Assembly (NCBI RefSeq): GCF_018866305.1
Contig: NZ_CP076456.1
Span: 1,798,001-1,862,000, forward strand
DNA: 64,000 nt
Source of the DNA: Arthrobacter sunyaminii
Lineage (GTDB): Bacteria > Actinomycetota > Actinomycetes > Actinomycetales > Micrococcaceae
Reading direction: 5' to 3'
Under the pieces are notes generated by a model that was not told where the DNA came from, made no database searches, and saw nothing but the letters and a program-made list of their open reading frames with translations. The number at the start of each line of letters is the position of its first letter. Within the stretch, counting starts at the first letter, position 1. A program made the position numbers and the translations under genes. Positions 8,645 through 50,390 of the stretch are shown here, piece by piece.

Positions 8645-10156
8645 ATGAGACGTGCAAAAATTGTGGCCACATTCGGCCCAGCAATCGCAAGCTACGAAAA
8701 CACCCTCGCGGTTCTCAGCGCCGGAGTGGACGTAGCCCGCATGAACATGAGCCACGGAGATCACGACGTACACAATTCTGTGTATGAGAACGTGCGCCGG
8801 GCATCCGAGGAACTGGGCAAGCCGGTAGGCATCTTCGCTGACCTGCAGGGGCCCAAGATCCGTCTTGGCCGCTTCATGGACGGCCCGCACTACCTGAACA
8901 AGGGCGACGTCTTCACGATCACCATTGAAGATGTTCCGGGCACCAAGGATATTGTCTCCACCACGCACAAGGGACTGCCCAACGACGTCAACGTGGGGGA
9001 CACCCTCCTGATTGACGACGGCAAGGTCTCCGTCCGTGCCACTGCCGTTGATGACGTCAAGGTGGTCACCGAAGTGACCGTTCCCGGCCCCGTGTCCAAC
9101 AACAAGGGCCTGAACCTGCCGGGTGTGGCGGTAAGCGTGCCCGCCATGAGCGACAAGGATGAGGCAGACCTGCGCTGGGCCATCCGCCGCGGCGTGGACA
9201 TGGTTGCGCTGTCCTTCGTCCGTAACGCCGTTGATGTGCGCCGCGTCCACGAAATCATGGACGAGGAAGGCCGCCGCGTTCCGGTCATCGCCAAGATCGA
9301 GAAGCCGCAGGCCGTGGCTGCCATCGAGGAAATCATTGACGCCTTCGACGCCATCATGGTTGCCCGTGGCGATCTCGGTGTGGAGCTTCCCCTCGAAGAC
9401 GTTCCCCTGGTGCAGAAGAACGCCATCGAGCTGGCCCGCCGCTGGGCGAAGCCGGTCATCGTGGCCACCCAGGTGCTGGAATCCATGATTGACAGCCCGC
9501 GGCCCACCCGCGCTGAAGCCTCCGACTGCGCCAACGCCGTACTTGACGGTGCCGACGCCGTGATGCTCTCGGGCGAGACGTCAGTGGGCAAGTACCCGAT
9601 CGAGACCGTGACCACCATGGCCCGGATCATCGAGTCCACCGAAGAGCACGGCCTGAACCGCGTGCCGGCCCTGGGCTCCAAGCCGCGTACCCGCGGCGGC
9701 GCCATTACCCGTGCCGCTGTCGAAATCGCAGACCAGCTCGATGCAAAGTTCGTCTGCACCTTCACCCAGTCCGGTGACTCGGCCCGCCGGCTTTCCCGTC
9801 TGCGCCCGAAGAAGCCGGTGCTGGCTTTCACCCCTGTGGAAGAGACCTACCGCTACATGAGCCTGTTCTGGGGCATCCAGCCCATGCTCGTGGAGTTTGC
9901 GGAGAACACTGACCAGATGACTGCCCAGGTGGACCGGACGCTGTTCGAGAACGACCTGGTGGACATTGACGACATCGTGGTGATCGCAGCCGGTTCGCCT
10001 CCCGGACAGGCGGGTTCCACCAACTCGATCAAGGTCCACAAGGCAGGGGACATCGCTGATGCAGGTCAGCGCCTTGACGGCCAGATGCGCGTCAAGGAGA
10101 AGGTTGGCCCGTGGCCGATCAAGAACTCCAACAAGGGCAAGGCCAAGTCCATCTAA
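8645..10156 (+). CDS. pyk: Pyruvate kinase
   Basis: Glycolytic enzyme making pyruvate and ATP from phosphoenolpyruvate and ADP. The 503-residue product starts MRRAKIVATFGPA, as actinobacterial Pyk proteins do. It carries the substrate and Mg-binding core (MNMSHG, then DLQGPKIRLG), the active-site motif IAKIEKPQA with its catalytic Lys, and MVARGDLGVELP. The C-terminal allosteric domain follows. An upstream in-frame ATG at 8594 would add 17 non-conserved residues, so I chose 8645, which sits right behind a leaderless-type -10 element. The gene is monocistronic, with a strong terminator immediately downstream. Confidence 0.96.
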   Translation: MRRAKIVATFGPAIASYENTLAVLSAGVDVARMNMSHGDHDVHNSVYENVRRASEELGKPVGIFADLQGPKIRLGRFMDGPHYLNKGDVFTITIEDVPGTKDIVSTTHKGLPNDVNVGDTLLIDDGKVSVRATAVDDVKVVTEVTVPGPVSNNKGLNLPGVAVSVPAMSDKDEADLRWAIRRGVDMVALSFVRNAVDVRRVHEIMDEEGRRVPVIAKIEKPQAVAAIEEIIDAFDAIMVARGDLGVELPLEDVPLVQKNAIELARRWAKPVIVATQVLESMIDSPRPTRAEASDCANAVLDGADAVMLSGETSVGKYPIETVTTMARIIESTEEHGLNRVPALGSKPRTRGGAITRAAVEIADQLDAKFVCTFTQSGDSARRLSRLRPKKPVLAFTPVEETYRYMSLFWGIQPMLVEFAENTDQMTAQVDRTLFENDLVDIDDIVVIAAGSPPGQAGSTNSIKVHKAGDIADAGQRLDGQMRVKEKVGPWPIKNSNKGKAKSI

Positions 10157-10181
10157 CACGGACTTCACCTCGTTCCATCAG

Positions 10182-10219
10182 AGCTGCCCGGCCGGGGTTT
10201 TCCGGCCGGGCAGCTTTTT
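10182..10219 (+). terminator. Rho-independent terminator of pyk
   Basis: Perfect 14-bp GC-rich stem (10182-10195 and 10202-10215) with a 6-base loop, followed by TTTT. Confidence 0.93.
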
Positions 10220-10227
10220 ACTGTAAC

Positions 10228-10258
10228 GATATCCAGTTCCATCCATTGATATCCAGTT
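10228..10258 (+). repeat. Two direct repeats of GATATCCAGTT, 20 bp apart
   Basis: GATATCCAGTT occurs at 10228-10238 and 10248-10258, a spacing of two helical turns, in an unusually AT-rich patch directly after the pyk terminator; CCAGATATG follows at 10261-10269. This could be a protein-binding site for the next gene. The rest of the 10259-10460 stretch shows no gene or clear promoter, apart from the ribosome binding site of the next gene. Confidence 0.5.
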
Positions 10259-10460
10259 TTCCAGATATGCCGCCCCTCCTTACCCATGTGCCTACTCACC
10301 CACGGTTCGACCACCCGTGCCCGGGGGGCAGAACCAATCCCGGACAGCGGGGGATGACCTGCACTGTTTCGCTAGTCGCGGCTGCGTATCGACGTTGGAC
10401 CATGGCACTGCTCAAGCGCTCGGGCGATGATCATGAGTACGGCCTGAGAGAGGAGCAGCT

Positions 10461-10853
10461 TTGAGCTACTGGGACAATTTTTGGGACATCCTTTGGTGGG
10501 TTTTCACCGTGACAGTCCTCTTTGCCTATTTGTTTACCCTCTTTGCGGTGATCAGCGACTTGTTCCGTGATCGCGGACTGAGCGGCTGGGCCAAAGCTGT
10601 GTGGGTTATCTTTCTGGTGCTGTTTCCGTTCCTCACAGTCCTCGTTTATCTCATCGCCCGCGGGAGGGGAATGAATGAACGGGCCAGGAGGGAGTCACAG
10701 GAATTGCAGAACTCCACGGAGGAATACATTCGCCGGGTTGCGGCCTCTTCCCCCAGCGACGAAATCTCCAAGGCCAAGGACCTGCTTGACGCCGGTGCCA
10801 TCACCCCGCAGGAATTCGAAACCATCAAGGGCAGAGCGTTGTCCGCGGCCTGA
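10461..10853 (+). CDS. Small membrane protein with PLDc_N-like and SHOCT domains
   Basis: 130-residue protein with two hydrophobic helices (about residues 10-32 and 44-64) separated by a short basic loop, the layout of the phospholipase-D-nuclease N-terminal (PLDc_N) family. It ends with a short SHOCT module (EISKAKDLLDAGAITPQEF), an oligomerisation motif common at the ends of small membrane proteins. No catalytic residues are visible, so a structural or envelope role is inferred. The start is TTG, supported by GAGAGAGGAG five bases upstream; no ATG is available before the first helix. It ends just before a bidirectional terminator. Confidence 0.85.
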   Translation: MSYWDNFWDILWWVFTVTVLFAYLFTLFAVISDLFRDRGLSGWAKAVWVIFLVLFPFLTVLVYLIARGRGMNERARRESQELQNSTEEYIRRVAASSPSDEISKAKDLLDAGAITPQEFETIKGRALSAA

Positions 10854-11657: not shown

Positions 11658-11742
11658 GCCCGAATGGCGGAATTGGCAGACGCGCTGCACTCAAAATGCA
11701 GTATCGAGAGGTGTGTGGGTTCGAGTCCCACTTCGGGCACCA
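11658..11742 (+). tRNA. tRNA-Leu (anticodon CAA)
   Basis: 85-base tRNA with encoded CCA. The acceptor arms GCCCGAA and TTCGGGC pair perfectly. The D-loop contains TTGGCAGA. The anticodon stem CTGCA/TGCAG encloses loop CTCAAAA, giving anticodon CAA, which reads TTG. A variable arm of type II length and the T-loop GGTTCGAGTCC are present. Confidence 0.97.
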
Positions 11743-42717: not shown

Positions 42718-43215
42718 TTAGGACGCCTCAGGTTCGGTGGCAGCGCACCACACGGCGTCAATCATGTCCGATGCTGCCTGCTCCGTAATAGCAAGCGCCA
42801 GCGACACTTCCGTCAACAGCGGCTGCCGTGCATGGCGCAGCATTTCCCGTTCCGCCTGGGAAAGCCCGTGCGAGTTGTTTCGGAGCATCAGATTGCGCAC
42901 GACGGCGGCAATCACCAGAGGGTCGCCCGTGGCCAGCTTTTCGGTATTGTCCTTAAACCGCCGGGACCACTGGTGATCCTCCTCGTCAGCCGGGCCCCGC
43001 AGGACCGAAAACAGCGTGTCCAGACCGGTTTGGTCCAGGACGGGCCGCAGGCCCACACGCTCAATCTGATCCAGGGGAACCCAGACCATCAGATGGGAGG
43101 CCTGCACTTCCAGGACCATGCAGTCCTTCTGCAGACGCGGATGGATTTGAAAAGAGCTGACCACTGCTGGGCCGTGATGGGGATGAACCAGAACCTGACC
43201 TTTGGAAAATGACAA
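42718..43215 (-). CDS. CarD-family regulator (paralogue)
   Basis: 165-residue protein with a CarD N-terminal RNA-polymerase-interaction domain (FSKGQVLVHPHHGPAVV and LMVWVPLDQIERVGLRPV). The C-terminal helical domain keeps the WSRRFKDNTEKLATGD stretch seen as WSRRYKxNxEKLxSGD in essential CarD. The conserved tryptophan that wedges the open promoter appears to be present in that region. The sequence departs from housekeeping CarD enough to suggest a second copy. The start is TTG with GGAGG 6 bases upstream, a setting expected to keep expression modest. Confidence 0.88.
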   Translation of the reverse strand: MSFSKGQVLVHPHHGPAVVSSFQIHPRLQKDCMVLEVQASHLMVWVPLDQIERVGLRPVLDQTGLDTLFSVLRGPADEEDHQWSRRFKDNTEKLATGDPLVIAAVVRNLMLRNNSHGLSQAEREMLRHARQPLLTEVSLALAITEQAASDMIDAVWCAATEPEAS

Positions 43216-43481
43216 TTGGCACCTCCGGCAGAAGCTGAAGGCCCGGCTCAATGCCCCAAACCGGTGTCACCAGTCAGCGGGACGATTGTTTCAACGGTTC
43301 ACCGGGAGAGTAGCGGCAAACAAATCTGAAAGCGCGGATGCAGCTGAACCGTACGGACGGAGCCGCCCACATCCGCGAGCCTGGCACTGCCTCCATTTTA
43401 CGCCGACCCCCACCCCTTCTGCCGAGTCCCGGGGGAACAAGTGCGGGCCGCTGCACCTAAATCCCTGATCCGGCTGCACTA
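43216..43481. other. Upstream region of the carD-like gene
   Basis: 266 bases with no supportable gene. The reverse strand contains the carD-like ribosome binding site (GGAGG, 43222-43226) and presumably its promoter; I cannot fix the hexamers. Confidence 0.4.
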
Positions 43482-43521: not shown

Positions 43522-44751
43522 TCACCGGGCAGAGGCGGAGGCAGGAGCAGGAGCCTCACCCGCCCGCCACACGAAGTCGGGAATCGTACCGTTGATTTCC
43601 CAGTCGCCCACGATCCGTGACTTGTAGATGACCGGATTGTGGGAGGAAATGGTCCGGGCATTGCGCCAATGCCGGTCCAGCTGCAGTTCCTGCCGGGTTG
43701 AAGAGGCACCGAGGGCATTGAAGAGAAGGGAAGCTGCCCGCTGGACCTGCTCGGTCACCACAATCTGCGCCTGCGAAGAGGCGAACTCCACCGCTGTGAC
43801 CGCGGCGTCTGCGAGCGCAGGCGACGATTGGAGCTGCGCCTCGTAGGCTTCCTGCACCAGTTCGGCCACCCGGAGGGAAGCTGTTTCGGCAGAGAACGCC
43901 AGCGCTGATACTTCCCCCACCACCTGCTGCACCTGGATATCCGCGCTGGGCCGGGTGCCGTTTCCGTTGCTGAAGGTCCTGGTCCTCTTGCGCACTTCGG
44001 AGACTACGTCCCCGAGTGCCGCACGGGCTATGCCGGCAAGGGTCGCCACATGGATGAGCTGGTATACACCGGTGCTGTACGGCGGATGCGCCGCCTCCGT
44101 GATGACGTCCGCAGCGGGAACGAACACATTGGTGAAGACCGACGTTCCGCTGGCGGTCAGCCGCTGGCCAAAACCGTCCCAGTCATCGATTACCTCAACG
44201 CCCGGATTATCGCGGCGGACCAGGGCTATGACGTCCAGGCCCTCGGCTGTGCGGGCACCCGTCTGGATCCAGTCCGCGTACAGGCTTCCCGTCGTGTAGG
44301 ACTTGGTGCCGTTAACCCGGTAACCCGCACCGTCCACCGTGATGGTGGTGCTGACCCCGCCCACGGGGACCGGTCCGCTTTCGGTCCAGGCATTGCCCAC
44401 CACCGCCCCGTCTGCGATCCGGCGCAGCCACTTCGTGTTGTTGGCATACAGCAGGTCCTCCACGAAGGCGATGTGGCAGCGCAGGGCCTGGGCCAGATTC
44501 GATTCCGCCGCCGCCAATTCAATGAGCAGCCGGAAGAAGTCCGGGGCGGACACGCCTCCGCCGCCGAGTCCGGAGGGAACCCGCAGGGACGTGAAGCCCG
44601 CTTCGGCAAGGCGGCGGACTTCATCGTGCAGCAGGATGCGTCCGCTCTCCCGCCGGGCTGCACCCTGGGCGATGTCTGCAAACAGCGGGCGGAACCGGGC
44701 CGCCAGTTCCGCATAGCTGCGGGCGGAGGAAGCCAAAATCTCGGTGGTCAT
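43522..44751 (-). CDS. Acyl-CoA-dehydrogenase-fold flavoprotein (SfnB/DszC-like)
   Basis: 409-residue protein with the three acyl-CoA dehydrogenase domains: N-terminal helical, middle beta (WTESGPVPVGG, YRVNGTKSYTTGS, DDWDGFGQRLTASG) and C-terminal helical (ALGASSTRQELQLDRHWRNARTISSHNP). The GQRLTASG and HWRNARTISSHNP motifs match the DszC/SfnB monooxygenase branch rather than true acyl-CoA dehydrogenases, and I see no catalytic glutamate in the usual place. Such enzymes use FMNH2 to oxidise organosulfur compounds. Start ATG 44751 follows AAAGGA. It is last in an operon led by a putative SAM riboswitch, which supports a desulfurisation role. Confidence 0.85.
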   Translation of the reverse strand: MTTEILASSARSYAELAARFRPLFADIAQGAARRESGRILLHDEVRRLAEAGFTSLRVPSGLGGGGVSAPDFFRLLIELAAAESNLAQALRCHIAFVEDLLYANNTKWLRRIADGAVVGNAWTESGPVPVGGVSTTITVDGAGYRVNGTKSYTTGSLYADWIQTGARTAEGLDVIALVRRDNPGVEVIDDWDGFGQRLTASGTSVFTNVFVPAADVITEAAHPPYSTGVYQLIHVATLAGIARAALGDVVSEVRKRTRTFSNGNGTRPSADIQVQQVVGEVSALAFSAETASLRVAELVQEAYEAQLQSSPALADAAVTAVEFASSQAQIVVTEQVQRAASLLFNALGASSTRQELQLDRHWRNARTISSHNPVIYKSRIVGDWEINGTIPDFVWRAGEAPAPASASAR

Positions 44752-44786
44752 GAAAAGGGTCCTTTCGGGGAGGTCTATAGCGGGGT

Positions 44787-46484
44787 TCATGCGTGCAGAT
44801 CGGTGGCGGAAAGGCGCCGGGGCATCTGGGGCACGGCAGCGAGCAGGGCCTTGGTGTAGTTGGTTGTCGGAAAGTTGAAAAGCGATGACGCGCTGCCGGA
44901 TTCCATGACACGGCCGTCCTTCATCACCAGGACGTCGTCGCTCACGTGGTGGATTACGCCGAGGTCATGACTGATGAACAGATAGCTCAGGCCATGCTGT
45001 TCCTGCAGATCCGCGAGGAGATCCAGGACCTGGGCCTGGATGGACACATCCAGCGCGGATACCGGTTCGTCGAGCAGCAGCACGCGGGGCCGGAGCGCCA
45101 AGGCGCGGGCTATGGCCACGCGCTGGCGCTGCCCGCCGGAGAGGGTGAGCGGCTGCCGGCGAATCAGGTCCAGGGGCAGCCCAACCTGACCGAGCAGTTC
45201 CGCGGCGCGGTCCCGGCGTTCACCGGGCGTGCCGGTGCCCCCGGCCTCCAAGGCGTCGGTAATCACCCGCTCCACGCTGAAGCGCGGATCAAATGAGCTC
45301 AGCGGGTCCTGGTTCACCAGCTGGATGTCCCGCCGGTGCGGACGCCGCATCTCTTCGGTGACCGGTGCCCCCTGGACGTTCCCGGCCCACGGCAGCCCGC
45401 CGAGCCGGACCGTCCCCGCATCCGCCTCCGTAAGTCCCAGGACGATGCGCGCCGTCGTTGACTTGCCCGATCCGGACTCGCCCACGATGCCCAGGGTTTT
45501 GCCGGCCGGCAGGGTAAAGGAGACATTGTTGACCACTGTGCGGGAGGAGCCGTCCGGAGACACATAGGCCTTGACCAGGTTGCGGGCTTCGAGCGCCGGA
45601 GCCTCCGCGGAGAAAGCCGAGGCCCGTACCGGGCCTGCGGACTTCACTTGCCGGGGCAGGGACGAGAGCCGGGTGCCCTTGCCGCGGCCGGAGGGAACGG
45701 CATCGATCAGCTGTCGGGTGTACTCGTGGCGCGGGTTGCCCAGCACTTGCGCCGCCCGCCCCGACTCGACTATCCGTCCGTGCTGCATCACGGCGATTTC
45801 ATCGGCGAGCCGGCTAACCACGGCAAGATCATGGGAGATGAAGATCAGCCCGCGGCCCTGTTCCTTCAGGGCGGCCAGCAGTTCGAGGATCTGGGCCTGG
45901 ACGGTGGCATCCAGCGCGGTGGTTGGTTCATCGGCAATCACCAGCTGCGGATTAAGTACGGTGGCCTGCGCAATCAGCGCGCGCTGCCGCAGCCCGCCGG
46001 AGAGTTCACCGGAGCGCTGCCGCGCCCGGACCTCGGGATCGGTGATGCCGGCGGCGCGCAGGGCGGCGAAAACCCGTTCCTGGCGCTCCTCCCGTCCATG
46101 GACGCCGTGGGCACGGAGGGCTTCGTCGATTTCCCGGCCGACCGTGCGCAGGGGATCCAGGGACACGAGGGCATCCTGGAGGACATAGCCGATGTGCTTT
46201 CCCCGCAGCCTGCGCCACTGCCGCTCGGAAAGCCGGGCTGCATCGTGCCCGAGCACGTCCAGACGGTCCGCGGATACCCGGGCGTTGGGCGCATTGAGTC
46301 CCACGAGGGTGCGGGCCGTGACGGTTTTGCCGGATCCGGATTCCCCCACCAGGGCCAGCGCCTTCCCGGGGGCAAGGGCCAGCGAAACATCACGGACAAC
46401 GTCAATGGTGCCCCGCGCGGTGGAGAAGGAAACATTCAGGTTGTCGATGGCGAGCAGCGGCTGCTGCGGGGTGTGCGGTGTCAT
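44787..46484 (-). CDS. Peptide/nickel-type ABC transporter, fused DppD-DppF ATPase
   Basis: 565-residue ATPase with two full cassettes. The first has GESGSGKT, LSGGLRQRA and VIADEPTTALD; the second has GESGSGKST, LSGGQRQRV and LLLDEPVSALD. This is the fused form of the two ATPases that energise dipeptide/oligopeptide-type importers. The start lies two bases after the upstream permease stop. The substrate is set by the operon's lipoprotein and is inferred to be a sulfur-containing compound. Confidence 0.92.
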   Translation of the reverse strand: MTPHTPQQPLLAIDNLNVSFSTARGTIDVVRDVSLALAPGKALALVGESGSGKTVTARTLVGLNAPNARVSADRLDVLGHDAARLSERQWRRLRGKHIGYVLQDALVSLDPLRTVGREIDEALRAHGVHGREERQERVFAALRAAGITDPEVRARQRSGELSGGLRQRALIAQATVLNPQLVIADEPTTALDATVQAQILELLAALKEQGRGLIFISHDLAVVSRLADEIAVMQHGRIVESGRAAQVLGNPRHEYTRQLIDAVPSGRGKGTRLSSLPRQVKSAGPVRASAFSAEAPALEARNLVKAYVSPDGSSRTVVNNVSFTLPAGKTLGIVGESGSGKSTTARIVLGLTEADAGTVRLGGLPWAGNVQGAPVTEEMRRPHRRDIQLVNQDPLSSFDPRFSVERVITDALEAGGTGTPGERRDRAAELLGQVGLPLDLIRRQPLTLSGGQRQRVAIARALALRPRVLLLDEPVSALDVSIQAQVLDLLADLQEQHGLSYLFISHDLGVIHHVSDDVLVMKDGRVMESGSASSLFNFPTTNYTKALLAAVPQMPRRLSATDLHA

Positions 46485-46486
46485 GG

Positions 46487-47380
46487 TCAGACCTCTGCTT
46501 CGAGTCGGCGTTGCAGGTGATGGCCCACCACCGTGGTGGTCAGGGCCGCGAGAGTGATGAATATCCCGGGGAACGCGGCAATCCACCAGGCGATCTGGAG
46601 GTAGTTGCGCCCGTCGGCGAGCATTGCGCCCCATTCGGCGGCCGGCGGTTGCGCGCCGAGTCCGAGGAAGCTCAGGGAGGATGCCCAGACAATGGACTGT
46701 CCGATGCCGAGCGTGACGAGGACAAACAGAGGGCGCGCCACGTTGGGGATGATGGTGTGCCGGAGGATATGGGAGCGTGACCGGCCCAGGGACAGAGCCG
46801 TTTCCACATAGGGGGCGGCCACCACCTGCAGGGTCTGGGTGCGGAGCATCCGGGCGTAGCCGGGGGCGGATCCGATTCCCACGGCAACCGCGGCGGTGAC
46901 GACGCCGGTGCCGGAGACGGCGATCACGATCAGGGCCAGGAGCAGGCCGGGGAAGGCGAAGAGGATTTCGACGAAACGGCAGATCGCCGAGTCGAGCCGC
47001 TTGCCGGACACTCCGGCAGTAATGCCCAGTGCACCGCCCAGGATCAGTCCGATGGCCGTGGCCGCCAGGCCCAGAAGCAGTGATTGGCCGGTGCCGGCGA
47101 TCACCCGGGACAGGATGTCGCGGCCGTTCTGGTCGGTGCCGAACAGATGGGAGGCGCCCGGCGCCTGGAAGGCGTTGGCGGGATCAATCTCGTAGGGGTC
47201 CTGCCGCAGGAACAGGGAAGGGGCGACGGCGGCGAGCACCAGGAATACCAGGAGCGCGCCGGCTATCCACACACCGGCGGGAGTGCTGCGGACCAGCCGC
47301 AGGGTGCGCAAATGCGTCCCGCCGGTCAGCGGGTCGGCGGGCTCTTGCACTGTCGAGGCGGGTCTGGCAATCGTGGTCAT
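46487..47380 (-). CDS. Peptide/nickel-type ABC transporter permease (DppC-like)
   Basis: 297-residue inner-membrane permease with an N-terminal cytoplasmic lead and six helices. It has the DppC features FGTDQNGRDILSRVIAGTG after helix 1 and the ATPase-contact EAA loop YVETALSLGRSRSHILRHTIIPNV near the C-terminus. An ATGA overlap links it to the DppB-like gene, and it lies two bases before the ATPase start. Confidence 0.92.
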   Translation of the reverse strand: MTTIARPASTVQEPADPLTGGTHLRTLRLVRSTPAGVWIAGALLVFLVLAAVAPSLFLRQDPYEIDPANAFQAPGASHLFGTDQNGRDILSRVIAGTGQSLLLGLAATAIGLILGGALGITAGVSGKRLDSAICRFVEILFAFPGLLLALIVIAVSGTGVVTAAVAVGIGSAPGYARMLRTQTLQVVAAPYVETALSLGRSRSHILRHTIIPNVARPLFVLVTLGIGQSIVWASSLSFLGLGAQPPAAEWGAMLADGRNYLQIAWWIAAFPGIFITLAALTTTVVGHHLQRRLEAEV

Positions 47381-48378
47381 GCTGCACTTCCTGTCGGGTT
47401 GGTGCGGGGGTCCACCGCGCGGTAGAGGAGGTCCACGGCGAGGTTCACGAGGATGTAGACGGCGGCAATAATGAACACCACGGCCAGGGTTACCGGCATA
47501 TCGCGGTTGATGATGGCATCCACGAGGGAACGCCCCAGCCCGGCCCGGGCAAAAATGATCTCGGCGACGACGGCGGAACTCACCAGTGAGCCCACTGCCC
47601 ACGCGGAGAGCGTGAGGCCGGGCAGGATGGCGTGCCGCAGGGCATGCGTCAGCCGCACGGCGGCGTCGCTCAGCCCCCTGGCACGGGCGCTCAGGATGAA
47701 CGGCTGAGCCAGGGCTTCTTCGAAGGAGGACCGGGTGACCTGGGCGATGAACCCGGACAGGGGGATGGCCAGTGAGAGCGCCGGCAGGACGAGCGAGCGG
47801 AAGCCGTCGTCTCCGGCCACCGGGAACCAGCCCAGGATGACGGCGAAGAGGACCGCAAGCATGATGCCCACCCAGAACGGGGGAAGGGAAGCGAAGAACA
47901 CCTCCAGGGTCCGGCCGACGCCGTCGAGCAGGCGTCCGCGGCCCACCGTGAGGAGCGTGAATGCCAGGGCGATGACCCATGCGAAGGCCAGCGCCAGTCC
48001 GGCGAGCTGCAGGGTGGGAAGGATCTGCGGGCCGATGATCTCGATCACGGGAACCTTGAAGATATAGGACACCCCAAAGTCCCCGGTAATCAGGTTGCCC
48101 AGATAGGAGAGGTACTGCAGAAGAACGGGCCGGTCGAGTCCGTACTGGGCTCTTACCGCTGCCACCGTCTCGGGCGACGGGGAGGATCCGGCACCCCCGA
48201 GGATCGCTGTTACGGGATCGCCGGGCGTGAGGTGCAGGACAAAGAAGGTGAGGGTGACGGCCGCCCAGAGGACAAAAACGCTGCCGGCGGCCCGCTTACC
48301 GACAATGCGGCCGGTGCTGCCTCCGGACACCGTTGTGCGAGGTGCCGTGTTGAGGGGATCAAGGGATTGGGTGCTCAT
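47377..48378 (-). CDS. Peptide/nickel-type ABC transporter permease (DppB-like)
   Basis: 333-residue permease with six helices, the DppB-type early motif LTPGDPVTAILGG, and the EAA-loop region QPFILSARARGLSDAAVRLTHALRHAILPG. The N-terminal 25 residues are a polar lead. Overlaps both neighbours by four bases, so the transporter genes are tightly coupled. Confidence 0.92.
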   Translation of the reverse strand: MSTQSLDPLNTAPRTTVSGGSTGRIVGKRAAGSVFVLWAAVTLTFFVLHLTPGDPVTAILGGAGSSPSPETVAAVRAQYGLDRPVLLQYLSYLGNLITGDFGVSYIFKVPVIEIIGPQILPTLQLAGLALAFAWVIALAFTLLTVGRGRLLDGVGRTLEVFFASLPPFWVGIMLAVLFAVILGWFPVAGDDGFRSLVLPALSLAIPLSGFIAQVTRSSFEEALAQPFILSARARGLSDAAVRLTHALRHAILPGLTLSAWAVGSLVSSAVVAEIIFARAGLGRSLVDAIINRDMPVTLAVVFIIAAVYILVNLAVDLLYRAVDPRTNPTGSAA

Positions 48379-50030
48379 TGGGGATCCACCGCCGTGACGT
48401 CGTAGAGGTAGGGGAGGGAAAGGCTGGGTTCAAGGGTGAGGTTTGTCCAGCGGTCGCTGCGCAGGGCCACCTGGCTGGCCTGGTTGTAAAGCGGCAGCTG
48501 CAGGGCGTGGTCGCTGACGATCTGCTGGGCCTGGTGGTAAAGGTCCTTCCGGACGGCAGCATCGTCGGTGGCAAGTGCCGCGTTCAGGATCGAGTCCAGC
48601 CCGGGATTGCGAAAGCCCGATCCGTTGGCTACAAAGCCGGCAGACTCGGTGTATTCCGAGGAGAAGACAATGCGGAGCACATCGGCGGTGTTGGTGTTCC
48701 AGTAATCGGCGCGAAGGTCGTATTCGAAGGTGTTGCCCAGTTCGCTCACGGTTGCTGCGTCGCCGTTCTCGATCAGCACCTCGAAGCCGGCCTGCTTCGC
48801 TGTCGCCTGGATTTGAGTGACCAGCGCCTGGTGCGCAGCGGGCCAGGCTCCGGGGGTGTACGGGAAATGAACTCTCAGGCGCTCGCCGTCTTTCACCCGG
48901 TACCCTTCGGCGTCGTGCTCCGTCCAGCCGGCATCGTCGAGCAGGCGCGCTGCTTCGGCGGGGTCCGGGTCATAGACGTGCTCAAAATCGGGGGAGTAGA
49001 AGCCGGTGGTGGAGCTGAGCGGCCCGCCGGCCCGGGTGACGGTGCCGAAGTAGACGCTGTTGATGCCAGCGTCCACGTAAGCGCTGTGCAGGAAAGCCTT
49101 GCGGACGTTGAGATCGTCAAACGGCGCACGGGTGGTGTTGAGGATGAGGTTGGTAGGGTTTCCGGGCCGGTCACGCAGGGTCAGCTCCACGTTTCCGTCC
49201 GCTTCCGCCTCGGCAAAGTGGACCGAGGGCATGAGGTCCAGGGCGTCCGCCTGGCCTGCCCGCAGCAGGCCGTACCTGGTGGAGTCTTCGGGAACAATGC
49301 GCCATTCGATCTTCTCAATGTGTGCCGGGCCGTCATGCTGCGCGTAGGGCGGAGCGGAGTTGTAGTCTTCGTTGCGGACCAGGGTGACCTTGGACTGCGG
49401 GACGTAGTCCAGGATCTTGTACGGTCCCGAGCCCACCGGCGAGTGGCAGTTTTCCACTTGCGGCCGCTTCAGGGCCGCGGGTGACTGGATGCCGAGGAAG
49501 GGCTGGGCGAGCACCTCAAGGAACGCCGCATACGGGCGGTTCAGGGTGACGACGGCGGTGGTCGGGTCCACTACCTGCGTGGACTCGTAGGGTTTGAGGT
49601 AACCGCCTGCGGTACCTGACTGGGTGTTTGGATCCACCATGTGGTCCAGGTTTGCCTTCACTGCTTCCGCGGTGAGTTTTGTCCCGTCGGTGAACCAGAC
49701 GTCGTCGCGCACTGTGAATGTGTAGGTGAGGCCGTCGCCGGACACTGACCATGCTGTGGCGAGCCACGGGTGGATGGTGCCGCCGCTGTCCTGTGAAACG
49801 AGGGAATCCAGGTAGTTCGCTGCGATGGATGCCTGCGGCATGTCGCCGTCCACGTGGGGATCCAGGCAGGAAATGTCCTTGCCGGTGGCAAAGACAAAGG
49901 TGTCGCTGCCGCTGGCTGCGGCCGGCCCGCCGCAACCGGAAACGGCAGTGGCGAGCATGGCCCCTGCCGTGAGGACGGCGAGGGTGCGGGGTATCTGGGG
50001 ATGGGGTTTGGGAGGTCTTGCTGGGCTCAC
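48375..50030 (-). CDS. Peptide/nickel-type ABC transporter substrate-binding lipoprotein
   Basis: 551-residue SBP_bac_5-family protein. The signal peptide ends in lipobox VSGC (Cys33). The mature part has the family stretches CLDPHVDGDMPQASIAANYLDSLV and TYTFTVRDDVWFTDGT. GTG 50030 is favoured over ATG 50048 because AGGAG lies 6 bases before it. It is the first gene of the operon, about 110 bases downstream of a putative SAM riboswitch. Family members bind peptides, nickel complexes, glutathione or other solutes; a sulfur-containing ligand is inferred from the riboswitch. Confidence 0.9.
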   Translation of the reverse strand: MSPARPPKPHPQIPRTLAVLTAGAMLATAVSGCGGPAAASGSDTFVFATGKDISCLDPHVDGDMPQASIAANYLDSLVSQDSGGTIHPWLATAWSVSGDGLTYTFTVRDDVWFTDGTKLTAEAVKANLDHMVDPNTQSGTAGGYLKPYESTQVVDPTTAVVTLNRPYAAFLEVLAQPFLGIQSPAALKRPQVENCHSPVGSGPYKILDYVPQSKVTLVRNEDYNSAPPYAQHDGPAHIEKIEWRIVPEDSTRYGLLRAGQADALDLMPSVHFAEAEADGNVELTLRDRPGNPTNLILNTTRAPFDDLNVRKAFLHSAYVDAGINSVYFGTVTRAGGPLSSTTGFYSPDFEHVYDPDPAEAARLLDDAGWTEHDAEGYRVKDGERLRVHFPYTPGAWPAAHQALVTQIQATAKQAGFEVLIENGDAATVSELGNTFEYDLRADYWNTNTADVLRIVFSSEYTESAGFVANGSGFRNPGLDSILNAALATDDAAVRKDLYHQAQQIVSDHALQLPLYNQASQVALRSDRWTNLTLEPSLSLPYLYDVTAVDPQ

Positions 50031-50080
50031 GTCAGGCTCCTGAATCATCGCCCGGCGGAGGGCGACGCAGGTTCGCCGGC

Positions 50081-50116
50081 GTCAGCTTCGCCGTGCCGGG
50101 GCAGGGCGAAGCTGAC
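50081..50116 (-). promoter_or_regulatory. Hairpin between riboswitch and lipoprotein start
   Basis: Perfect 12-bp inverted repeat (50081-50092 and 50105-50116) with a 12-base loop, placed after the aptamer on the reverse strand. It lacks a T tract. It may be the expression-platform hairpin. Confidence 0.5.
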
Positions 50117-50137
50117 CAACGAAAGCGCGCAGCTTCT

Positions 50138-50230
50138 CCATCGGTCCTGGCAGTAGCACCGTTCCCCGCTGCTGGGCGGGGAGGGTTGCTGCGGCGTCGT
50201 CGATCCAGGTCTCTCGGCCGCTCGGGATGG
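50138..50230 (-). promoter_or_regulatory. Putative S-box (SAM-I) riboswitch
   Basis: Read on the reverse strand, 93 bases fold as an S-box aptamer. P1 is CCATC with GATGG at the two ends. P2 is GCGGC with GCCGC, enclosing CGAGAGACCTGG (the GAG-GA-TGG kink-turn region). The core AGCAACC follows. P3 is TCCCCGC with GCGGGGA. Then comes GGTGCTACTGCC, matching the conserved GGTGCyAa..CC of P4. The P2 loop CCTGG can also pair with CCAGG downstream. Position upstream of a transporter operon fits. A covariance-model search was not possible here. Confidence 0.82.
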
Positions 50231-50390
50231 TTAAGGAAAAGCTAGCCCATGGATCACGGCCGGGCCAGCGATGACCGTTTTTGACCTCATGGGCGTCTCG
50301 GTGCGTCATCGGCGGTCACAGAGGTTCACGGCGGTGCCATCCGGACCCGGGACCGGGCGCCCGGCCAAGAGTGTGCGATGCGCCACGAAA

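Follow-up and report, generated by a model that had tools for sequence, protein, structure and literature searches.

Analysis of a 64,000-nucleotide stretch of the Arthrobacter sunyaminii genome (contig NZ_CP076456.1, positions 1,798,001 to 1,862,000 of the forward strand; henceforth the window) points to an operon on its reverse strand that is led by an S-adenosylmethionine (SAM) riboswitch of the SAM-I class and encodes an ATP-binding cassette (ABC) importer together with a flavoprotein of the acyl-CoA dehydrogenase fold. This operon is probably a SAM-repressed sulfur-scavenging unit that is completed in trans by two further loci, each led by a riboswitch of the SAM-IV class. The best reading of the three loci taken together is a two-component flavin sulfur-scavenging regulon that uses two classes of riboswitch. 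An earlier note, made from the letters of the window, had proposed a sulfur-starvation operon importing an organosulfur compound and desulfurising it in the cell. That interpretation is partly supported and was largely right in direction: a SAM riboswitch does head the genes for an importer and an S-oxygenase-type flavoprotein, and SAM riboswitches lead seven of 15 orthologous operons, but the importer does not reveal its substrate, and the likely carbon-sulfur-cleaving partner and flavin reductase lie outside the operon. What is new is that the genome has candidates for these missing enzymes at other loci, each headed by a SAM-IV riboswitch, an arrangement that is strongly conserved in the case of the reductase. 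These candidates strengthen the desulfurisation hypothesis but split the pathway over three loci.

The Rfam covariance model RF00162 matches reverse-strand positions 50135-50233 over its full length, at 49.6 bits, where the gathering score is 44.4 (cmscan; E 2.3e-8 in the window search), which bears out the S-box-like fold previously drawn at 50138-50230. This element is hence a SAM-I riboswitch by its covariance-model match, and is predicted to bind SAM. The 3.9 Mb genome has three matches to RF00162, of which this one scores highest, the remaining two (42.0 and 41.6 bits) falling slightly under the gathering score. Across the genus, RF00162 matches at an E of 0.001 or better are present in 28 of 29 genomes, exceeding the cut-off in 17 of them. 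Among the 60 matches listed, 32 sites were examined, and at each of these the first gene recognised downstream is related to sulfur or methionine: an SsuB-like gene at 11 sites, a MetN-like gene at nine, the substrate-binding protein (SBP) of an importer at eight, a MetE-like gene at two, and a luciferase-like monooxygenase and MetY at one each. Because the reference gene set was sulfur-focused and the 32 sites are mostly each genome's best match, many of them under the cut-off, this result shows consistency rather than amounting to an unbiased survey.

The genes of the operon, all on the reverse strand, follow the order and junctions that had been described earlier. They encode a substrate-binding lipoprotein of the peptide/nickel/glutathione-type importers (48375-50030; PF00496, E 1.8e-75), ABC permease B (47377-48378; PF00528, PF19300), ABC permease C (46487-47380, with its start at ATG 47380; PF00528), a fused two-domain ABC ATPase (44787-46484; PF00005 in two stretches, PF08352) and the SfnB-like flavoprotein (43522-44751). 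The likely start of the lipoprotein is GTG 50030, with AGGAG six bases before it. The SBP/permease B and permease B/permease C junctions are 4-base overlaps, permease C is separated from the ATPase by 2 bases, and the ATPase from the flavoprotein gene by 35; for the family scans, translations a little longer than these were taken (43522-44757, 44787-46487, 46487-47386 and 48375-50048). The combination of an SBP_bac_5 protein, two BPD_transp_1 permeases and an ATPase with ABC_tran and oligo_HPY domains places the importer in the peptide/nickel/glutathione class. Among NCBIfam models the binding protein matches TIGR04028 (KPN_01854) best, at 202.7 bits against the 468.5 needed, and its best sequence match in the PDB is 1uqw (YliB, which we take to be the glutathione-binding GsiB; E 4.7e-42). 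By these domain and family matches the importer is of the GsiB/NikA type, a level at which a specific substrate cannot be named.

The flavoprotein contains both of the motifs noted earlier, GQRLTASG and HWRNARTISSHNP. Of the SfnB/DszC-like label given to it on that basis, the S-oxygenase-type fold stands and the two specific names do not: the protein scores 264.1 bits on the SfnB model TIGR04022 against an equivalog cut-off of 430.9, and 107.2 bits on the DszC model NF043015 against 850. Six relatives of 48-58% identity, from Pseudomonas, Pantoea, Acinetobacter and Arthrobacter-type genomes, likewise miss the TIGR04022 cut-off (231-285 bits), and by this pattern of scores the window protein belongs to a sister subfamily. 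Its AlphaFold model, built with 34 sequences, has a mean predicted local distance difference test score of 86.0 and a predicted template-modelling (TM) score of 0.89. In a Foldseek search with this model, ranks 1-27 are all DszC, TdsC, MsuC or MAB_4123 chains (TM 0.78-0.84), followed by N-oxygenases and acyl-CoA dehydrogenases, so that the protein has an acyl-CoA dehydrogenase fold nearest to S-oxygenases, as in the group D flavin S-monooxygenases. His95, Thr156 and His373 are invariant across 34 homologues and align with a histidine, a serine and a histidine of DszC, presumably the catalytic residues of that enzyme; a source for DszC His92/His391 was not found in the literature searched, a weak absence given that most subscription journals lay outside it. 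The resemblance to the DszC/TdsC enzymes of the dibenzothiophene 4S pathway thus extends to fold and to these positions, but sequence identity is only 25-28%, and Ile370 occupies the place of the first histidine of the DszC RTHSLH motif, a histidine that is not conserved.

No carbon-sulfur-cleaving gene was found in the operon. A search of the genome with the luciferase-like protein encoded in or at the end of the orthologous operon of Arthrobacter castelli, itself above the cut-off of the NtaA/DmoA-family model TIGR03860 (517.3 against 279.7 bits), returned a single match, at 203106-204458, which also passes that model (563.5 against 279.7 bits). A SAM-IV riboswitch (202917-203031) lies directly ahead of this gene, and the gene diverges from the SAM-I-like switch of 42.0 bits, which precedes an SsuB-like gene that misses its cut-off and an SsuA-family gene that passes its own. 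In the genome G152 an 83% identical, SAM-IV-led copy of the luciferase-like gene is convergent with the SfnB-like gene of a window-type operon and 111 bases from it.

The earlier note was also correct that no flavin reductase adjoins the operon: the genome has five Flavin_Reduct matches and two FMN_red matches, and all of them lie outside the window. One of the five (PF01613; 2397549-2397989) is encoded behind a SAM-IV riboswitch at 2397332-2397449, its first ATG being 54 bases past the aptamer. Orthologues of this reductase, taken as the best match per genome at an E of 1e-25 or better, were found in 16 of 20 chosen genomes, and in all 16, representing four genera, a SAM-IV riboswitch lies on the same strand 42-107 bases ahead of the matched stretch. 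In contrast, none of four paralogues examined (33-49% identity) has a SAM-IV upstream; three further matches had no locus. SAM-IV is common in the family, being present in 100 of 100 genomes sampled with mostly one to seven matches each, yet not common enough for its placement before the reductase to be chance. Moreover, the reductase adjoins enzymes of the expected kind in two of six fetched neighbourhoods: in G084 a DszC/SfnB-like gene, which scores 257 bits on the DszC model and so misses its cut-off, lies behind the SAM-IV-led reductase, and in A. castelli the reductase itself comes after a SAM-IV-led gene pair, the second member of which is 53% identical to the luciferase-like enzyme of the window genome.

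Orthologues of the binding protein with at least 69% identity are present in 13 of 245 family genomes, the next level down being 45%; with the addition of G021 and Arthrobacter agilis UMCV2 this yields a set of 15 orthologous operons. SAM-I riboswitches lead six of these (the window, G021, G019, A. agilis, G081 and G152), and a SAM-IV leads that of A. castelli. None of ten control loci with SBP paralogues of 36-45% identity has a SAM riboswitch. A luciferase-like monooxygenase was called inside or at the end of the orthologous operon in A. castelli, in G084 and in five of seven g8 loci, counts that are minima since the simple open reading frame caller merged or missed genes at some loci. G012 and G006 have diverged importer operons behind a riboswitch, and these too contain an SfnB-like gene, adjoined in G012 by a luciferase-like one. 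In A. agilis about two thirds of the SfnB-like protein is matched and no intact copy was called: the match (10001-10825 of the locus L109) covers residues 3-278 only, the gene seeming shortened or broken, with the riboswitch and transporter kept.

Several observations weigh against the three-locus regulon. The link between SAM riboswitch and operon is not universal: eight of the 15 orthologous operons have no Rfam SAM riboswitch above the gathering score, four of these eight, when rechecked, lacked a SAM-class match even at an E of 0.05, and the SAM-IV of A. castelli sits some 280-320 bases ahead of the SBP start. The control locus L268 combines importer, SfnB-like and luciferase-like genes without a SAM riboswitch, and hence such clusters also exist in its absence. 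No reductase orthologue at an E of 1e-25 or better was found in four of the 20 genomes (G081, G152, G012 and G001), among which G081 and G152 carry the orthologous operon and G012 the diverged one; in the remaining four of the six fetched neighbourhoods, as in the window genome, no S-oxygenase-type or luciferase-like enzyme was recognised beside the reductase. To these may be added the family cut-offs missed by the binding protein and, for both SfnB and DszC, by the flavoprotein.

Seven of the eight riboswitch-less orthologous operons have another conserved leader element in common. This element (L253-L259), with the core GCYTCGTTGAACACTAGCCGGTGA, precedes the SBP gene in seven g8 genomes at the position that SAM-I occupies elsewhere, and can form hairpins. 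It occurs as one copy each in seven of ten g8 genomes searched, always directly ahead of the operon, and three of these loci scanned at an E of 0.05 gave no SAM-class Rfam match. The GCYTCGTTGAACACTAGCCGGTGA element is a candidate for a new regulatory RNA or an operator. The only match given by the four orthologous operons rechecked at that E, one at L253 to mir-3937, an animal-type microRNA family, is under the family cut-off and was taken as chance.

As to the mode of control, the six orthologous SAM-I leaders share a near-identical aptamer core, then an invariant GGAGAAGCU and GCUUUCGUUGGUC flanking a four-base variable loop, and after GCUUUCGUUGGUC a conserved block that closes with the Shine-Dalgarno sequence. 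In all six, a putative anti-P1 hairpin (GACCGAUGGAGAAGC / GCUUUCGUUGGUC; window 50114-50146, reverse strand) with invariant arms includes the 3' strand of P1, for which it would compete with P1. The hairpin appears in both unconstrained and P1-blocked folds of four of the six leaders and is absent from those of the window and G021, so that the modelling favours competition for P1 in four leaders; in the window it forms when the arm region is folded alone, the arm pairing reaching -13.2 kcal/mol against a shuffle mean of -8.2. In a wider set of 21 leaders, which are related and not independent and exclude four sites with a start directly after P1, pairing of the P1 strand with the next 40 bases exceeds the mean of 500 shuffles in 20, with a fraction of at most 0.05 in 14; three leaders (L066, L048 and L067) clearly fail this test. 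A second predicted hairpin (50035-50077, reverse strand), lacking a U-tract, pairs the Shine-Dalgarno AGGAG (50041-50037) with an upstream CCUG, and is seen in the P1-forced fold of five of the six orthologous leaders, including that of the window. An intrinsic-terminator platform was rejected, the only terminator-like site found being upstream of the aptamer.

Given the Shine-Dalgarno-pairing hairpin, the anti-P1 hairpin and the lack of a U-tract, these folding results suggest that the riboswitch acts on translation. At high SAM the aptamer would be bound and P1 formed, turning the genes off, most likely via blocked ribosome binding; at low SAM the conserved downstream hairpin would take the 3' strand of P1 and the genes would be expressed. 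Simple energy modelling of the ON and OFF states did not reproduce this switching: no clean release of the Shine-Dalgarno was obtained, at least three of its five bases stay paired in five of the six leaders whether P1 is forced or blocked, and the G021 leader behaves opposite to the proposal. Since the Shine-Dalgarno is mostly paired in both states for most leaders, the switch may work at a step other than ribosome access, and the riboswitch might instead act on transcription, for example through Rho-dependent termination, to which long GC-rich leaders are suited. We consider this somewhat unlikely, given that five of the six orthologous leaders, when folded with P1 forced, have the Shine-Dalgarno-pairing hairpin next to the start, that at four of 22 sites read no more than about 17 bases separate P1 from the start codon, as fits control of translation, and that no intrinsic terminator was seen past the aptamer. 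An AUG inside P1 opens a 19-codon reading frame (window 50140-50081, reverse strand), the first codons of which, MEKLxAFVG, are conserved in the six leaders. A leader peptide starting here was judged unlikely, as the AUG follows from the P1 sequence and the conserved bases fit the hairpin, the four variable columns falling in its loop; no well-spaced Shine-Dalgarno was seen before this AUG.

In the pathway that we propose, the GsiB/NikA-type importer would bring in an organosulfur compound, at a guess a thioether, a sulfone or an S-substituted peptide, the sulfur of which would be oxidised by the SfnB/DszC-like flavin monooxygenase. The sole NtaA/DmoA-family monooxygenase found in the genome would then cleave the carbon-sulfur bond in trans, from behind its own SAM-IV, and the dedicated flavin reductase, likewise behind its own SAM-IV, would complete the pathway. 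Of this picture, the riboswitch matches, the identities of the genes to the level of superfamily, their conservation and their linkage are observed, and the binding of the ligand, the direction of control, the reactions of the enzymes and the joint working of the loci are inferred. The class of the importer and the match of its binding protein to YliB, together with the lack of a carbon-sulfur-cleaving gene in the operon, could also accommodate a SAM-controlled salvage of methionine or peptides, in which methionine-containing peptides or glutathione-like compounds are imported and the flavoprotein, instead of preparing carbon-sulfur cleavage, serves as an accessory S-oxygenase or as a detoxifier. 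However, this is distinctly unlikely in view of the luciferase-like monooxygenases in or at the end of orthologous operons, and of the recurrence in the genus of S-oxygenase-type genes together with a SAM-riboswitch-led importer of the MetN/MetI type (locus L097). A non-sulfur substrate, such as an N-oxygenated or nickel-chelating one, with SAM control reflecting a need for methyl groups only, would suit the N-oxygenases that come next by fold (such as KijD3, TM 0.78) and the closeness of NikA-type proteins to the binding protein, but is very improbable since the 27 top-ranked chains are known S-oxygenases or MAB_4123 and sulfur is indicated both by the partner genes behind SAM-IV and by the remaining sites with a SAM riboswitch. 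Returning to the sulfur-scavenging pathway, we extend it to Arthrobacter-type actinobacteria as a group only tentatively: they may possess a complete two-component flavin desulfurisation pathway organised as a riboswitch regulon, in which SAM-I governs import and S-oxidation, and separate SAM-IV riboswitches govern carbon-sulfur cleavage and the reductase.

The operon shares with known SAM-I (S-box) regulons a full-core RF00162 aptamer, downstream sulfur or methionine genes and competition for the P1 strand, but differs from them in that the switch heads importer and flavin S-oxygenase genes in an Arthrobacter-type actinobacterium. No description of such an arrangement in these bacteria was found in the literature searched, a weak absence as subscription journals were mostly outside it; the same literature yielded no paper linking a SAM riboswitch with sulfonate and monooxygenase or a SAM-IV riboswitch with a flavin reductase, and none on KPN_01854. 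In the available part of a 2013 survey (PMC3766115), only Corynebacteriaceae and Mycobacteriaceae are listed among actinobacteria; that of PMC8557817 adds nothing on the operon. The SfnB/SfnG and msuEDC systems of Pseudomonas, in the portions of PMC11852219 and PMC13352529 available, similarly combine acyl-CoA-dehydrogenase-fold and luciferase-like monooxygenases with a flavin reductase. They differ from the present system in that the window protein misses the TIGR04022 cut-off, the genes are spread over three loci and control is by riboswitches. In Acinetobacter baylyi, the accessible text of PMC13352529 describes Dms1-3 as group D enzymes oxidising dimethyl sulfide and dimethyl sulfoxide, and a single reductase, MsuE, as supplying many monooxygenases; the latter fits oxygenase operons that lack a reductase. 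Dms1-3 are likened here by description and not by sequence, and the word riboswitch is absent from the main text of that paper as far as available. For Gordonia alkanivorans 135 the quantitative PCR text of PMC11852219, in the part available, gives a 312-fold rise of sfnB on dibenzothiophene; its table prints a negative log2 ratio for dibenzothiophene/sulfate, the sign convention of which is unclear beside that rise. A point against a SAM-controlled scavenging regulon comes from Ca. Pelagibacter, where, according to the available part of PMC5069961, translation-blocking SAM-V switches control methionine-related genes, sulfur acquisition is constitutive and sulfur stress does not increase the import of organosulfur compounds, unlike what we propose.

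Most descriptions of organosulfur scavenging place it under the control of sulfate- or cysteine-sensing protein regulators, and the sulfone-sulfinate systems of Pseudomonas are under protein regulators. By comparison, in this family of actinobacteria two classes of SAM-sensing RNA appear to control importers and oxygenases, and a flavin reductase as well. If this is true, two RNA sensors of one metabolite would govern successive steps of a dispersed pathway along with the electron supply that these share, offering a natural test case for why SAM-I and SAM-IV exist side by side in one regulon. Uncharacterised monooxygenases would thereby gain a physiological context, and a shared kind of riboswitch could serve as a means of locating the missing partners of split desulfurisation pathways.

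Certain other riboswitch loci were observed in the course of these searches. In the window genome these include a SAM-I-like element of 41.6 bits followed by a MetE-type catalytic-domain protein and an acyl-CoA dehydrogenase, a pairing that is unexplained (L069 9238-11950; G000:C1:1964237 onward); a SAM-IV followed by a 146-residue reading frame without a Pfam match and an Nramp-type metal transporter (L218 4455-6631; G000:C1:980454 onward); and a weak SAM-IV match (45 bits against a cut-off of 38) with no clear downstream gene (L219 3322-3458; G000:C1:3403321). In a 21 kb locus of Arthrobacter sp. VKM Ac-2550 (L152), SfnB-like and luciferase-like genes are surrounded by one SAM-IV and three SAM-I riboswitches, one of the latter being cut by the end of the locus. 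Short reading frames with the motif LSL-VT-KRARARGE lie near riboswitch loci of relatives (L073 3314-3676, L097 4098-4466 and L099 4237-4599). Within the window itself, the end of the operon is adjoined by a gene for a CarD-family regulator (42718-43251, reverse strand), and the Rfam scan also detected one tRNA at 11658-11739 on the forward strand.

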